Of a stretch of DNA of 64,000 bases, positions 34,342 through 42,463 are shown piece by piece. The translations under genes were made by a program, and so were the position numbers. The DNA is taken from assembly GCF_014127485.1 (NCBI RefSeq), contig NZ_CP059903.1, positions 744,001 to 808,000 of the forward strand, read 5' to 3'. The notes under the pieces are model-generated. The model saw nothing but the letters and a program-made list of their open reading frames with translations. It was not told where the DNA came from and searched no databases. The number at the start of each line of letters is the position of its first letter. Position 1 is the first letter of the stretch. Source of the stretch: Nocardioides dongkuii. GTDB taxonomy: Bacteria > Actinomycetota > Actinomycetes > Propionibacteriales > Nocardioidaceae.

Positions 34342-36293
34342 CCACCTCCGAGCGACCCGCGGGCGCCAAGCCGGGGCAGGGCTTCCAGGCGACGGAGCGG
34401 ATCGAGGCCCCGGCCGGCGGGCCCGGCCGCGGCCCGATGGGCGGCATGGTCGCCCAGAAGGCGATGGACTTCGGGCCGTCGGCGCGCCGCCTGGTCGCCG
34501 GCATGCGCCCGGTCCGCGGCCAGGCGCTCCTGGTCGTCCTGCTGGTCACCGCGTCGGTCCTGCTGATGGCGATCGGCCCGCGGCTGCTGGGGCACGCCAC
34601 CGACCTCGTCTTCCGTGGCGCGGTCGGCGGGTCGGTGCCGGCGGGCACGCCCGACTCGGCGCTCCCGGACGCGGTGCAGGACCAGGGGGTCGTGGCCGGC
34701 CAGGGCGTCGACTTCGCCGCGGTCGGGGAGTGGCTGCTGCTCGTGCTGGCGGTGTACGTCGCGGCGTCGCTGCTGTCCTGGCTGGCCGGCTACGTGCTCA
34801 ACGGCGTCGTCCAGCACACCGTGCGGCGGATGCGCCAGGACGTCGAGGACAAGATCCACCGGCTCCCGCTGCGGTACTTCGACCGCTCGCCGCGCGGCGA
34901 GCTCCTGAGCCGGGTCACCAACGACATCGACAACGTCAGCCAGACCCTGCAGCAGACGATGAGCCAGCTGCTCCAGTCCGTGCTCACCGTGCTCGCGGTG
35001 CTCGCGATGATGCTGTGGATCTCCCCGCTGCTCGCCCTGGTGGCGCTGGCCACCGTCCCGCTGTCGTTCTGGGTCACCCGGGCGATCATGAAGCGGTCCC
35101 AGGGGCAGTTCGTCGCCCAGTGGCGTCGTACCGGCCAGCTCAACGGGCACATCGAGGAGGCCTTCTCCGGCCACGCGCTGGTCAAGGTGCTCGGCCGCAC
35201 CCGCGAGGTGGAGCGGTCCTTCGAGGAGCACAACGAGGGCCTGTACGAGGTGTCGTTCCGGGCGCAGTTCGTCAGCGGGCTGGTGATGCCGGCGATGATG
35301 TTCCTCGGCAACCTCAACTACGTCGTCGTGGCGGTCGTGGGCGCGTTCCGGGTCTCCAGCGGGGCGCTGACCCTGGGCGAGGTGCAGGCGTTCGTGCAGT
35401 ACACCCGGCAGTTCACGCAGCCGCTCACCACGGTGGCCTCGATGGCCAACCTGCTGCAGTCGGGGGTCGCGTCCGCCGAGCGGGTCTTCGAGCTGCTCGA
35501 CGCCGACGAGGAGCCGCCCGACGTCCCCGCCGCCGGCGGGCCGGCTGCCCGGCGCGGCGAGGTCCGGTTCGAGCACGTCTCGTTCTCCTACGACCCCGAG
35601 CGGCCGCTCATCACCGACCTGTCCCTGGTCGCGAGGCCGGGCGAGACGGTGGCGATCGTCGGCCCCACCGGGGCCGGCAAGACGACGCTGGTCAACCTGG
35701 TGATGCGCTTCTACGACCTCGACGCGGGCCGGATCACGCTCGACGGCGTCGACATCGCCGCCGTGCCGAGGGCGCAGCTGCGCGAGCAGGTCGGGATGGT
35801 GCTCCAGGACGCGTGGCTCTTCGAGGGCACGATCCGCGACAACATCGCCTACGGCCGCCCGGGCGCCTCCGAGGAGGAGGTGCTCCACGCCGCCCGCGCC
35901 ACGTTCGTGGACCGCTTCGTCCACTCCCTCCCCGAGGGCTACGACACCCTGGTCGACGAGGAGGGGTCCAGCCTCTCCGCGGGCGAGCGGCAGCTGGTGA
36001 CCATCGCCCGCGCCTTCCTCACCGACCCGGCGCTGCTGATCCTCGACGAGGCCACCAGCTCGGTGGACACGCGCACCGAGGTGCTCGTGCAGCAGGCGAT
36101 GGCCGCGCTGCGCACCGACCGGACCTCGTTCGTGATCGCCCACCGGCTCTCGACCATCCGCGACGCGGACCTGATCCTGGTGATGGAGGACGGCGCCATC
36201 GTCGAGCAGGGCGACCACGCCACCCTGCTCGCCGCCGGGGGCGCGTACGCCCGGCTGCACGCGGCCCAGTTCGCCGCCGCGAAAAGTCCTTGA
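34338..36293 (+). CDS. ABC exporter half-transporter B (catalytic ATPase site)
   Basis: 651-aa partner of the upstream half-transporter, starting at GTG 34338 within the upstream stop region (GTGA). A 55-residue Gly/Pro-rich N-terminal extension precedes six membrane helices. An extracellular-side loop of about 40 polar residues after helix 1 is longer than in the partner. The ATPase domain has GPTGAGKTT, signature LSAGERQL and canonical Walker B LLILDEATSSVD with intact Glu, so this half supplies the active Walker B residues. It ends 13 nt before a small + strand unit. Confidence 0.92.
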   Translation: MTTSERPAGAKPGQGFQATERIEAPAGGPGRGPMGGMVAQKAMDFGPSARRLVAGMRPVRGQALLVVLLVTASVLLMAIGPRLLGHATDLVFRGAVGGSVPAGTPDSALPDAVQDQGVVAGQGVDFAAVGEWLLLVLAVYVAASLLSWLAGYVLNGVVQHTVRRMRQDVEDKIHRLPLRYFDRSPRGELLSRVTNDIDNVSQTLQQTMSQLLQSVLTVLAVLAMMLWISPLLALVALATVPLSFWVTRAIMKRSQGQFVAQWRRTGQLNGHIEEAFSGHALVKVLGRTREVERSFEEHNEGLYEVSFRAQFVSGLVMPAMMFLGNLNYVVVAVVGAFRVSSGALTLGEVQAFVQYTRQFTQPLTTVASMANLLQSGVASAERVFELLDADEEPPDVPAAGGPAARRGEVRFEHVSFSYDPERPLITDLSLVARPGETVAIVGPTGAGKTTLVNLVMRFYDLDAGRITLDGVDIAAVPRAQLREQVGMVLQDAWLFEGTIRDNIAYGRPGASEEEVLHAARATFVDRFVHSLPEGYDTLVDEEGSSLSAGERQLVTIARAFLTDPALLILDEATSSVDTRTEVLVQQAMAALRTDRTSFVIAHRLSTIRDADLILVMEDGAIVEQGDHATLLAAGGAYARLHAAQFAAAKSP

Positions 36294-36318
36294 GCACCGC
36301 CCCGGAGCGACCTACCGT
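36290..36318 (+). promoter_or_regulatory. Promoter-like pair for a small transcript
   Basis: TTGAGC at 36290-36295 and TACCGT at 36313-36318 are separated by 17 bp. Transcription would start near 36325, a few bases before a near-perfect anti-SD complement (AAAGGAGGT at 36332-36340). Confidence 0.45.
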
Positions 36319-36350
36319 GGTCGCACACGGGAAAGGAGGTGGTCCGGAGA

Positions 36351-36389
36351 ATGAGTTCTTCTTGGACGCGTGAGGTGGCTGCCCGCTAG
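36351..36389 (+). CDS. 12-codon ORF with near-perfect Shine-Dalgarno
   Basis: ATG 36351 to TAG 36389 encodes MSSSWTREVAAR. The preceding AAAGGAGGTGG (36332-36342) complements the 16S tail over about 9 nt, far stronger than other ribosome sites in this window, though it is 8-11 nt from the ATG. The stop codon is inside a small hairpin. A short peptide behind its own promoter with alternative hairpins resembles a leader peptide, yet the next gene is on the opposite strand. I have an unverified impression that similar mini-ORFs ending TREVAAR occur in other actinobacteria. Function unknown. Confidence 0.5.
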   Translation: MSSSWTREVAAR

Positions 36390-36435
36390 CAGCCCCAGCA
36401 GGACGACGGGGCAGGAGTGCCCCCGAGGCTGCTGG
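36377..36435 (+). promoter_or_regulatory. Mutually exclusive hairpins over the mini-ORF stop
   Basis: GGCTGC (36377-36382) can pair with GCAGCC (36389-36394), enclosing the TAG. The adjacent CCAGCAG (36395-36401) pairs with CTGCTGG (36429-36435), and GCAGCC can instead pair with GGCTGC at 36427-36432. A ribosome on the mini-ORF would cover the first arm. This is a layout used by attenuators; here it is a structural inference only. Confidence 0.4.
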
Positions 36436-36579
36436 CGAATCCACAGCAGCTACCCGACCCGCAGGCGAACCGGGACCACGTCCCCCGGTGCGGCCCGGAC
36501 CCCGGTCAGACCAGGATCCGGCGCCACGCCTGCGGGTCGCTGCGTCTCCGCCGGGTCTCCCGCCGCCTCAGGGGGACGC

Positions 36580-39040: not shown

Positions 39041-42000
39041 TCACGGGACCCTGGCCGGCTCCTCCTGGCCGAGGCGGACGATCTCGTCCATCCGGTCCAG
39101 CCCGACGGTGCCGTGGGTGATCCACACGACCGTGCGGTCGCTGGTCACCGCCAGCAGCTCGTCCGCGACCGCGCGGGCCGTGCGGGTGTCGAGGTGGGCG
39201 GTCGGCTCGTCCAGGACCAGCACGCGGTGGTCGGCCAGCAGCATCCGCGCCAGGCCGATCCGGGCCCGCTCCCCGCCGGAGACGGCCGCGCCGCCGTCGC
39301 CGAGCCGGGTCTGCAGTCCCTGGGGGAGCGCGTCGAGCCAGTCCCCGAGCCGGGCGGCCCGCAGCGCCGCCTCGACCTGGTCGTCGCCGGCGGCGGGGGC
39401 GGCGAGCCGGACGTTCTCCACCAGAGTGGAGCCGAACAGGTACGGGTCGTCGTCGAGCAGCCCGACCACGCCGCGCACGTCGTCGGCGGCCAGGGAGCGC
39501 ACGTCGAGGCCCGCCAGCCGGTAGCTGCCCGCGGTGGGGTCGAGGAAGCGGACCAGGACCGCGGCCAGCGTGGACTTGCCGGAGCCGGAGGGACCGACCA
39601 GTCCGATGCGGCGCCCCGGGGGGAGGTCCAGCGAGATCGGATCGAGCACGTCGCGGTCCGCCCACGCGGCCGTGACCTCGGCGAGGCGGACGGCCGCGTC
39701 CGCGGGGGACAGCGGGCACGGCAGCGGGAGGGGGTCCGCCGGGTCGGCCACTGCCGGGGGCAGCGCGGTGAGCTCGTCCAGGCGCCGGGCGGCGGCGCGG
39801 GTGGAGACCTGCAGGGCGCCGGCGTCGGCGACCGGGCCGAGCACGTCGACCAGGGCCAGCGGGAGCAGCACGAGCAGCGCGACGACCGGTCCCGAGACGG
39901 TGCCCTCGCGCAGCGCGGACCCGCCGACGGCCGCCATCGTCACCATGCCGATCCCCGCCGCCAGCATCGGCCAGGCGCGGGCCAGGACGAGCCAGAGGGT
40001 CGTGCGGTCGGCGGCTCGGGCGAGGGCGGCACCGGCCTGCTGGACGTGGTCGACGGCCCGCGCGCCGGCCTGCCACTGGACCAGGTTGCGGGCATCGGTC
40101 AGCAGGGAGAGGCTGCGCCGGGACAGCTCGGCACGGGCGGCCACCTGCTCGGCGGCGTGCCGTGCCGTGCCGTAGCGGGCGGTCGCCCAGCTCAGCATGC
40201 CGGTGAGGAGCACCAGCGCGGCGGTGACCAGGCCGGCGGCCGGGAGGAACCAGGTCGCGACCAGCGTGGTGACCGCGCCGGCGCCCACCCAGGTGACCAG
40301 CGGCATCCGCACCCGCAGCTGGTCGTCGAGCAGCGCGTCGACGTCGTCGACCACGGAGGCCAGCAGGTCGCCGCGGTGTCGGCCCAGCCGCCCGGGCACC
40401 AGCGGCACCAGCGCGTCGTACACGCTGGCCCGGCGCTCGGCCAGCTCGCGCAGGGCGACGTCGTGCGAGGTCAGCCGCTCGGCGTACCGCAGCGCCGGGC
40501 GGGCCAGGCCGAAGGTGCGCACCCCGACGATCGCGACCATCAGCATCAGCACCGGCGGGTGCTCGGCGGCCCGGACGATCAGCCACCCGGCCGTCGCGGT
40601 CAGCGCGATCCCCGAGGTCGAGGCCAGCACTCCGAGCAGCGTGGCCAGCGCGAGCCGGGCCCGGGGGTGGGAGGGCGCAGGGTCGGGGGAGCCCGCCGAC
40701 GGCCCAGGAGCCTCCGGGGTCCCCGGTGTCGCCTCGCGTGCCCGGGGCGGTGCGCCTGCGTCCCCGGGAGCGACCCGGGGCGCGACGGGCTCCGCTGCCA
40801 TCCCAGCCGCCATCCCCGCCGCCGTCAGCGCCACCACCGTGTCGGCGGCGTCGACGAGCGCCTGGCTGTGCGCGACGGCGAGGACGCAGCGATCGCGGGC
40901 CAGGTCGCGCAGCGTGCGCAGCAGCACCTCCTCGGTGGCGGGGTCGAGGTGCGCGGTGGGCTCGTCGAGGAGCACGAAGGGGCGCTCGGAGACGATCACG
41001 CGGGCGAGCGCGAGGCGGGCGCGCTGCCCGGCGGAGAGACCGGCGCCGTCCTCGCCGAGAGGGGTGTGGATCCCGAGCGGCAGCGCGTCGACGACCTCGG
41101 TGAGGTCCACCCGCGACAGGGCGCCGATCACCGCGGCGTCGTCGGCGTCGGGGCGGCCGAGGCGGACGTTGTCGGCGAGGGTGCCGTCGGTGAGCCAGGG
41201 CCGCTGCGCGACGTGGGCCACCCGCGAGCGCCACGAGTCGGGGTCGAGGGAGGTCAGGTCCACGCCGCCCACCCGCACGAGCCCGCCGGTGATCGGCACC
41301 TCGCGCATCAGCGCGGCGAGGAGCGTGCTCTTGCCGCACCCGGACGGGCCGGTGACCACGGTCAGCCCGCGGGCGGGGATGCCGACGTCGAGACCCTCGA
41401 GCGCCGGCCGGTCGCGGCCGGGCCACCGGATGCTCAGGTGGTCGATGCGCAGGGGCGCCGGGGCGAGCGGAGCCGGCTCGGTGCCCGCGGCGGGCAGCGG
41501 CTGCGCGGTGAGGTCGTGGATCGCCTCGAACGTCGCGGAGCCCTCGGCGGCGGCGTGGAACTCCGCCCCGACACGTCGCAGCGGCCAGTAGGCCTCGGGG
41601 GCCAGCAGCAGCACGGTGAGCGCGGTCTGCAGCTCCATGCCGTCAGCGGCGAGCCGGAGGCCGACGAGCACCGCGACCAGGGCGACGGAGATCGTCGCGA
41701 TCAGCTCCAGCGCGGCCGAGGAGGCGAACGCGAGCTTGAGCACGTCGCCGTTGGCGCGGCGGTAGCGGTCGGTGATCGCGCGGATCCGGGGGGCCTGCGC
41801 CCGTGCCCGGCGGTGCGCGACCAGGGTGGGCAGTCCGCGCACCACGTCGACGAAGTGGCCCGAGAGCTGGCTCAGGATGCGCCACTCCCGGTCGGCGCGG
41901 TCGCGGGTGCTCATCCCGATCAGGACCGCGAAGACCGGGACCAGCGGCAGCGTCAGCACCACGACCAGCGCGGAGAGCCAGTCCTGGGTGGCGATCGCCA

Positions 42001-42463
42001 GCACCGTCAGCGCCGGCAGCACCCCGGCCAGCACCAGCGTCGGCAGGTAGCGGGTGAGGTACGGCTCGACCGCCGCGACCCCGCGGGTGGCGAGCAGCCC
42101 GAGCTCGCCGGTGCGGTGCTCGGCGAGGCTGACGGCGTCCAGGTCGAGCGCGCGCTGGAGGACCGTACGGCGCAGGTGGGTGGCCACCTGGCCCGCGGCC
42201 CGGGACGCCGCGGCGTCGACCACGGCGCTGAGCAGCCCGCGCCCGACGGTGACGGCGAGCAGGGCCAGTGCCGGCCCGGCCCAGCCGTCGGCGGAGAGGT
42301 CGGCCCGCCAGCCGCCGGTCACCAGGCGGGTGACCAGCGTGGCCAGGGCGAAGGCCTGCGCCACCAGCAGCACGCCGGCGAGCAGGTTGCCCACCACCAC
42401 CACGGCCAGGGAGACCCGGGCGGGTCGCAGGTGGGGGAGGACTCGGGGGTCGAGGGGCTTCAC
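39041..42463 (-). CDS. cydDC: Fused CydDC ABC transporter for cytochrome bd assembly
   Basis: 1140-aa chain holding two complete ABC exporter halves, CydD then CydC. This transporter moves thiols (and, in recent work, heme) and is needed for cytochrome bd maturation. First half: membrane domain then GPSGCGKST, LSAGQRAR and FVLLDEPTAHLD. Second half: GPSGSGKST, VSGGERAR and VLVLDEPTAHLD; both Walker B sites keep Glu. The halves are joined by a Pro/Ala/Gly-rich linker around residue 545-590. Fusion is common in actinobacteria. GTG 42463 is 53 nt after cydB, and the gene is followed by the flhA promoter. Confidence 0.93.
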   Translation of the reverse strand: MKPLDPRVLPHLRPARVSLAVVVVGNLLAGVLLVAQAFALATLVTRLVTGGWRADLSADGWAGPALALLAVTVGRGLLSAVVDAAASRAAGQVATHLRRTVLQRALDLDAVSLAEHRTGELGLLATRGVAAVEPYLTRYLPTLVLAGVLPALTVLAIATQDWLSALVVVLTLPLVPVFAVLIGMSTRDRADREWRILSQLSGHFVDVVRGLPTLVAHRRARAQAPRIRAITDRYRRANGDVLKLAFASSAALELIATISVALVAVLVGLRLAADGMELQTALTVLLLAPEAYWPLRRVGAEFHAAAEGSATFEAIHDLTAQPLPAAGTEPAPLAPAPLRIDHLSIRWPGRDRPALEGLDVGIPARGLTVVTGPSGCGKSTLLAALMREVPITGGLVRVGGVDLTSLDPDSWRSRVAHVAQRPWLTDGTLADNVRLGRPDADDAAVIGALSRVDLTEVVDALPLGIHTPLGEDGAGLSAGQRARLALARVIVSERPFVLLDEPTAHLDPATEEVLLRTLRDLARDRCVLAVAHSQALVDAADTVVALTAAGMAAGMAAEPVAPRVAPGDAGAPPRAREATPGTPEAPGPSAGSPDPAPSHPRARLALATLLGVLASTSGIALTATAGWLIVRAAEHPPVLMLMVAIVGVRTFGLARPALRYAERLTSHDVALRELAERRASVYDALVPLVPGRLGRHRGDLLASVVDDVDALLDDQLRVRMPLVTWVGAGAVTTLVATWFLPAAGLVTAALVLLTGMLSWATARYGTARHAAEQVAARAELSRRSLSLLTDARNLVQWQAGARAVDHVQQAGAALARAADRTTLWLVLARAWPMLAAGIGMVTMAAVGGSALREGTVSGPVVALLVLLPLALVDVLGPVADAGALQVSTRAAARRLDELTALPPAVADPADPLPLPCPLSPADAAVRLAEVTAAWADRDVLDPISLDLPPGRRIGLVGPSGSGKSTLAAVLVRFLDPTAGSYRLAGLDVRSLAADDVRGVVGLLDDDPYLFGSTLVENVRLAAPAAGDDQVEAALRAARLGDWLDALPQGLQTRLGDGGAAVSGGERARIGLARMLLADHRVLVLDEPTAHLDTRTARAVADELLAVTSDRTVVWITHGTVGLDRMDEIVRLGQEEPARVP

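Follow-up and report, generated by a model that had tools for sequence, protein, structure and literature searches.

Within a 64,000-nucleotide (nt) stretch of the Nocardioides dongkuii genome (contig NZ_CP059903.1, positions 744,001 to 808,000; hereafter, the window), the + strand carries, from position 36325 to ~36540, an RNA of roughly 215 nt that is a member of a known, unexplained Rfam family, RF02471 (Ms_IGR-5). To this family we add a revised secondary structure, a conserved short open reading frame (ORF) and a range that extends beyond the actinobacteria. The reading we favour, with a probability of roughly 0.55, is that this is a free-standing regulatory RNA in which the act of being translated, rather than the peptide produced, would set the fold.

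An Rfam scan of the whole window returned RF02471 as its sole match (36325-36545, + strand), with a score of 106.8 bits against a gathering threshold of 45 and an E-value of 4.6e-23 over the window; the match covers the full length of the model (1-184) with no truncation. R1, a covariance model whose 48 training sequences include this RNA, scores it at 124.1 bits. The RNA is single-copy in the N. dongkuii genome, and matches elsewhere are nearly always single in their genome. An earlier note on this DNA had described the 5' half of the RNA as a mini-gene (36290-36435) comprising a promoter-like pair, a ribosome-binding site (RBS), a 12-codon ORF and alternative hairpins. On re-reading the sequence, all of these elements are present at these coordinates; moreover, the promoter, RBS, ORF and stop codon are conserved in homologues and accompany the RF02471 match. 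The unit is longer than had been described, running to ~36540 with a terminator-like hairpin, and three points had been missed: the existing Rfam family, the pairing of the 5' end with the ORF (helix P1) and the range beyond the actinobacteria.

The comparisons below draw on 158 homologues, namely, 191 fetched loci minus L171 and L172 (local-alignment scores below 40), and minus duplicates (identity over the first 110 nt) and truncated sequences; 48 of the 158 form a tool-made alignment, A1. The set was gathered by similarity to this block, and the conservation of its Shine-Dalgarno (SD) element is, therefore, partly ascertained.

The −35 element TTGAGC (36290-36295) and the −10 element TACCGT (36313-36318), both on the + strand, are separated by a spacer of 17 nt. 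Of 157 homologues, 134 carry the motif TAnnnT, which in 132 of those ends 6-7 nt before the first base of the RNA; shuffled upstream sequences gave a mean of 12 and a maximum of 21. TTG is present at the matching position in 103 of the 157, with a spacer of 17-18 in 99 of those. Judged by this comparison, the RNA has its own promoter. From the position of the −10 element and from P1, its 5' end would be A36325, and its 3' end would lie at ~36540, at the terminator-like hairpin. That the transcript is self-contained, as the note had supposed, is borne out by the conserved promoter, by the varying neighbours described below and by Streptomyces avermitilis, in which the family is reported as an independent small RNA (sRNA) transcription unit (PMC8780764). 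Other published accounts give RNA-seq support for a homologue in Streptomyces lividans (PMC8079986), a transcript overlapping IGR-5 in Mycobacterium smegmatis (PMC10454040) and ribosome reads on the homologues of M. abscessus and M. smegmatis (PMC4974804).

A conserved reading frame and its probable contact with the ribosome

The 12-codon ORF, MSSSWTREVAAR, occupies 36351-36389 (+ strand), with ATG at 36351 and a TAG stop at 36387-36389; its codons 8-9 are formed by an SD-like hexamer, GAGGTG (36372-36377), which is invariant in 48/48 sequences of A1. Across the 158 homologues, the SD and GAGGTG lie 35 to 45 nt apart, each value in that range being represented, and in one case 29 nt apart; all three residues modulo 3 thus occur. 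In the frame of the GAG codon, an ATG, GTG or TTG lies at normal SD spacing in 136 of the 158, as against two and one in the other frames; a start together with a stop at the fifth codon after GAG is found in 135, versus none in either alternative; and 156 have no stop within that frame, versus 66 and 13 for the others. Counted from the first G of GAGGTG, the stop is at exactly +15 nt in 155 homologues, the exceptions being L166 and L175, which are without one, and L191, which stops at +30. Because it is kept in the forms TAG (133), TGA (18) and TAA (5), it is the stop itself, not fixed RNA letters, that is conserved. The short ORF picked out in the note is, in these respects, a real one.

A pattern scan of named genomes, using a pattern that makes no demand for a stop codon, yielded at least 119 stretches, three of which repeat members of the 158-set. 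Among these matches listed, the stop is at +15 in 118 of the 119; the exception, L300 (R1 score, 9.3 bits), is not the RNA and matched by chance. The start is more variable. Only a near-cognate codon is available in 20 of the 158 homologues (CTG 10, ATC 5, ATT 3, ACG 1 and ATA 1), while L166 has none and L175 was unscored. The listed named stretches have canonical starts in 48 cases, CTG in 51, another near-cognate codon in 19 and none in one (L300), shares that are not typical of the family, since the pattern was biased by design towards lineages other than Actinomycetes; among the listed loci titled Acidimicrobiales, a CTG located 13 nt from the SD is recurrent. Near-cognate in-frame starts (CTG, ATC, ATT, ACG) thus occur beside an intact extended SD in L121, L123, L124, L129 and L131, and in 70 of the 119 named stretches among the matches listed, from lineages outside Actinomycetes; this set offers unusual natural material for studying start-codon discrimination.

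The encoded peptide has 12 residues in 114 of the 156 scored actinobacterial homologues, 13-15 in 41 and 17 in one. Within the 114 twelve-codon ORFs, codons 2-4 vary freely, save for a preference for Ser or Asp at codon 3, and their third positions are no freer than other positions. The residue before the Glu-Val pair (E-V) encoded by GAGGTG is drawn from nine amino acids (R, C, L, S, P, H, E, Y and G), with P1 kept ~98% paired by compensation, and the conserved residues mostly coincide with the codons that are constrained as RNA (E-V, P1 and a further helix, P3). Since residues are conserved mainly in those places, what is selected is likely to be translating, and not the peptide. The conserved ORF is very probably translated, and it is likely from these comparisons that selection acts on the translating frame and the RNA, and not mainly on the peptide. 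The translated ORF expected of a dual-function sRNA is likewise indicated by the comparison of homologues and by the ribosome reads reported on homologues (PMC4974804).

The RBS block, AAAGGAGGTGG, begins at 36332 (+ strand), as does the extended SD, AAAGGAGGTGGTCC (36332-36345), which is complementary to the 16S tail, GGATCACCTCCTTT: the 16S 3' end of this genome reads GGATCACCTCCTTTCT, and 14 nt of the tail can pair with the extended SD, with one G.U. Exact AAAGGAGGTGRTCC sites in the 4.2-Mb genome are limited to this RNA and the 16S gene, other G.U choices not having been sought. All 14 SD positions are pairable, G.U allowed, in 157 of the 158 similarity-collected homologues. Additionally, the hexamer GAGGUG is present both in the SD and in codons 8-9, and in this sequence the two copies are each followed by exactly 9 nt and then by ATG (the first) or TAG (the second). 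To judge by the protected reading frame within a conserved fold, ribosomes probably take part in the working of this RNA.

Covarying helices

RNAalifold on the 158 homologues and pair counts on the 48 agree on a structure with two helices, P1 and P3, that lie outside the Rfam model. P1 joins bases 2-5 of the RNA to the codon before GAG, with the first base of GAG in addition (codons 7-8): its 5' strand is at 36326-36331 (36326-36329 plus G36331) and its 3' strand, within the ORF, at 36367-36372. It is 98% paired in the 158, with 88 double-change cells, as against 7-67% when the partner is slid by 1-3, and 98.7% paired in the 48, with double changes at three of its five pairs; the pairs observed are CACG/CGTG, CACA/TGTG, CCAG/CTGG, CGCG/CGCG and CTTC/GAAG. 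P3 is formed by GGTGGCTGC in codons 8-11 (36374-36382) and by GCAGCTACC (36446-36454), which lies 63 nt beyond it; it is 96.5% paired with 102 double-change cells in the 158, and 93.3% formable in the 48. None of these cells falls in the first four pairs (GGUG/CACC), all 102 being in the other five. Because those four pairs never change on both sides whereas the other five do, we infer that GGUG/CACC or GAGGUG has a second partner, either the anti-SD, when a ribosome terminates there, or, for the CACC strand, the SD ahead of the start (SD1).

Inside P3 lies P4, the 5' strand of which (36384-36393) includes the stop codon and pairs with 36428-36437. In the 48 sequences, P4 is 87.1% paired, with double changes at five of six pairs; in the 158, it is 81.7% paired, with 80 double-change cells versus up to 55 in slid controls, and its support is, therefore, weaker than that of P1 and P3. 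An unpaired linker, AATCCACA (36438-36445; AAUCC-like in the consensus), runs from P4 to P3. A short helix, P2 (UCC 36343-36345 with GGA 36364-36366), has the start codon in its loop, and the unit is closed by P5, the terminator-like hairpin (36455-36467 with 36527-36539), which is without a U-tract after it and is also part of the Rfam consensus structure. The whole structure beats 500/500 shuffles on all five measures in the 48 sequences, a control in which relatedness remains; slid controls, which keep relatedness, gave 5-25 double-change cells versus 94 for the structure. The fold of the single sequence is better than that of its shuffles (z = −2.33), which is weak evidence alone.

The Rfam entry describes the same sequence family, and its structure contains a P4-like hairpin as well as P5. 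It differs from ours in that P1 and P3 are not in its structure line, and in having a 5' helix, pairing the SD with codons 10-11, that is 88.9% formable in the 48 sequences, shows no double change and equals shuffles; neither the ORF nor a second phylum is in its description as displayed by the tool used. The SD-sequestering helix is at best an alternative fold, and P1/P3 are favoured instead. The note, for its part, had proposed arms near the stop that pair exclusively, GGCTGCTGGC with either GCTAGCAGCC or CAGCAGC. The arms exist in the sequence; the second pairing, however, is only 49.7% formable across the 48 homologues, versus 93.3% for P3 and 87.1% for P4, and the downstream CAGC strand belongs to P3, paired with GGTGGCTGC of the ORF, and not to that arm. 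Among the 48, two mutually exclusive conserved hairpins, as an attenuator would have, were not found. What is supported of the original interpretation is the self-contained transcript unit, its ORF, its conservation and its not being an attenuator, whereas the specific alternative hairpins are not supported.

Distribution and genomic context

That the same block occurs in other actinobacteria had been suspected, and it was found in 192 of the 296 genomes of a class sample. The count was the same with the Rfam model and with R1, so that the absences in the class look real. In a phylum sample, the Rfam model matched 70 of 396 genomes at an E-value of 0.001 or better, 35 of them above the family cut-off, and R1 lifted the count to 143 of 396. 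R1, some of whose training sequences come from sampled actinobacterial genomes, and R2, built with second-phylum sequences as well, were both run on samples that contain their own training genomes. The named stretches among the matches listed include those titled Acidimicrobiales, Solirubrobacterales, Thermoleophilaceae, Nitriliruptoraceae, Gordonia and Nonomuraea.

Two loci, L229 and L263, come from metagenome-assembled genomes (MAGs) titled Acidobacteria. In 149 genomes from the phylum to which the genome of L263 belongs, R1 found 19 matches and R2 found 33, of which 15 are in the training set of R2; two R1 matches (G825 and G861) were not refound by R2, giving a union of 35/149. As none of the genomes among the matches listed there had appeared among the actinobacterial ones, they represent a second phylum, which by record titles alone is Acidobacteriota. 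The 35 loci examined (19 from R1 and 16 held out from R2, the latter including five that are near-identical, L361-L364 and L366) all have a canonical, in-frame start and a stop at +15, in 19/19 and 16/16, respectively; L336, L337 and L341 have two GAGGTG hexamers, of which the one placed 15 nt ahead of the stop was used. Peptides in this phylum have 11-19 residues. P1 and P3 were recovered by folding 15 second-phylum sequences alone; in the 35 loci examined, P1 was scored at its best register, which favours pairing.

WhiB was tried as a test of phylum for the Acidobacteria-titled MAGs and rejected: it is absent from the genomes of L229 and L263, is absent also from Svornostia (L238) and from L245, and decides nothing. 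L210 and L239, from MAGs titled Acidobacteria or Acidobacteriota, have WhiB and actinobacterial-type copies of the RNA, and are probably mistitled actinobacteria. L245, from a MAG titled Chlamydiae, was set aside: its copy is of actinobacterial type, on the same stretch as L220, from an actinobacterial MAG of the same series, and its title or bin is probably wrong. A full-length match of 68.2 bits, with an in-frame ATG and a stop at +15, is present in a MAG titled Candidatus Tectomicrobia (L311, 6748-6908), which would be a third phylum by title only.

On a finer scale, seven sampled genomes of one sister genus in the same family, g2 (G214, G411, G415, G449, G458, G461 and G464), are without the RNA by both models, and an eighth, G455, has it, a pattern of loss within the genus. 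One genome has, in addition to a full copy, a partial match of 24.8 bits to model positions 49-125 (G325:C3:130565-130646), possibly by chance, and another has two overlapping family matches (L120; G488:C157:10631-10923), which suggests an internal duplication or repeat.

In the window, the RNA sits between convergent genes, an ABC exporter gene on the + strand, the TGA stop of which (36291-36293) overlaps the −35 element, and a FHIPEP (FlhA-like) gene on the − strand. The earlier statement that no + strand gene follows for it to attenuate is, thus, correct, and neighbours differ between lineages: in a clustering of neighbouring ORFs at 118 fetched loci, the largest shared family covers 19 and none is common to most, and the adjacent downstream frame may be on either strand. 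A conserved, co-directional downstream gene, such as an attenuator would control, was not found among these loci. The varying neighbours argue for a free-standing RNA, and not for a cis leader. Near the FHIPEP gene, at 39041-42463 on the − strand, lies a further frame, distinct from the exporter upstream of the RNA, which encodes an ABC transporter membrane domain together with two stretches of ATPase.

A mobile-element origin was rejected, as limited searches of collections of phage, plasmid and viral sequences found few copies: a single scan of viral contigs with a strict pattern gave no match, and the plasmid matches were one on a Nocardia replicon of 2.66 Mb and two in Azospirillum, both weak. 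The one phage-labelled match, a full-length copy (85 bits), is at 6015-6146 of L193 (MT835602.1), an UNVERIFIED 'Bacteriophage sp.' scaffold from human faeces, which may be a contig of bacterial and not of phage origin.

A proposed mechanism and its rivals

With no ribosome bound, the RNA would fold into P1, P3 and P4. Loading of a ribosome at the extended SD would open P1, and a ribosome at the stop would cover GAGGUG together with the 5' strands of P3 and P4; GAGGUG would there be at normal SD spacing, and pairing with the anti-SD could hold the terminating ribosome. The opening of P3 and P4 would release a downstream strand, AAUCC...GCAGNCACC; by pairing with SD1 (GGUGGU/GNCACC), this strand could block the ribosome that follows, or it could act on RNAs other than its own. 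In this way, the state of initiation or termination would set the fold. A bolder form of the proposal, which we regard as speculative, is that of an ancient ribosome gauge, present in at least two phyla: SD1 would load a ribosome on a weak-to-good start, the other, SD-like hexamer, with its 15-nt distance to the stop, would hold it at termination, and occupancy of the two sites would switch the fold, thereby reporting to the cell its capacity for initiation or termination.

Several observations weigh against the regulatory reading. The pairing of SD1 with the CACC strand is a candidate read off the consensus. P2, although 96.5% paired in the 48 sequences, shows no two-sided changes, and is compatible with the data, not proven; P1 is weak in several second-phylum lineages. 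In single-sequence folds, GGAGG is on average 41% unpaired and the 5' strand of P1 53%, and thermodynamic prediction alone, therefore, does not give the covariation structure cleanly. Ser at codon 3 is reached in 52 of 114 ORFs via two codon boxes, a weak hint of constraint on the peptide. Both models leave the RNA undetected in 104 of the 296 class genomes, which implies that it is dispensable or replaced in places. Furthermore, ribonucleoproteins can mimic ribosome footprints, a caution voiced by the authors of PMC4974804 themselves.

Were the short peptide itself the product, with the structure merely tuning expression, the strong conservation of frame, start and stop, the favoured Ser or Asp at codon 3 and the ribosome reads on homologues (PMC4974804) would all be accounted for. 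Such a small-protein gene nevertheless seems improbable, given residues conserved mainly where the RNA is constrained (E-V, P1 and P3), nine residues admitted before E-V with P1 kept paired, lengths of 11 to 19 and third positions of codons 2-4 that are no freer than others. It is also unlikely, albeit a little less so, that the extended SD and GAGGUG act as a trap, holding free small subunits or initiation complexes and so tuning initiation (for example, of SD-led versus leaderless mRNAs) when ribosomes are idle. The 14-nt complementarity to the 16S tail, its unique exact site in the genome and the near-cognate starts beside an intact SD (20/158, and 70 of the 119 named matches listed, 51 of them CTG) speak for a trap; a pure trap, however, would have no need of the canonical starts found in most of the 158 or of a stop fixed in all but three, and there is nearly always one match per genome.

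An sRNA that acts by base-pairing in the conventional way, with an ORF serving only to control RNA stability, is a possible, if somewhat doubtful, alternative. It would suit the independent transcription unit of S. avermitilis (PMC8780764), the C-rich strand downstream of P4 and a changing genomic context, which fits a role in trans; it leaves unexplained the fixed 15-nt distance from GAGGTG to the stop across phyla, and no target is on record, none having been sought by computation. As for control of a neighbouring gene in cis, by a leader or an attenuator, the anatomy is like that of translated leaders (SD, short ORF, hairpins and terminator), but the next gene here is convergent, the largest neighbour family and the strand of downstream frames offer no constant partner (19/118 loci; either strand), and a terminator-like hairpin closes the unit; cis attenuation was rejected on this genomic context and is largely refuted, its probability being very low.

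Free-standing RNAs with a translated short ORF include the dual-function sRNAs SgrS/SgrT, RNAIII/hld and SR1. The present RNA resembles these in that respect, and differs in that the codons of its ORF form conserved helices, its peptide is weakly conserved and no base-pairing target is on record. Translated leader peptides of the erm type are ribosome-sensing attenuators; as with them, the position of the ribosome would choose between folds, whereas here there is no downstream gene to regulate. The same likeness and difference apply to the topAI upstream ORF (PMC12121999). Long SD:anti-SD pairing is a feature of the extended SD motifs of Staphylococcus aureus (PMC13009471), whereas the present RNA occurs once per genome and has another SD-like element, the distance of which to the stop codon is constant. 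The 6C RNA (RF01066) is also an actinobacterial sRNA for which ribosome reads are reported (PMC4974804), but no sequence relation was found, cmscan of the window having given RF02471 only.

Our literature search, outside which most subscription papers fell, found no description of an ORF in IGR-5, of P1 or P3, of a second phylum or of a function; there is, thus, no functional account in the literature searched of an sRNA present in about two thirds of the sampled class genomes. The combination of a protected ORF, an SD with 14 nt of complementarity to 16S and helices built from ORF codons makes this RNA a testable candidate for a ribosome-linked regulator, and the finding of copies in a second phylum points to a role that may be basic rather than lineage-specific.

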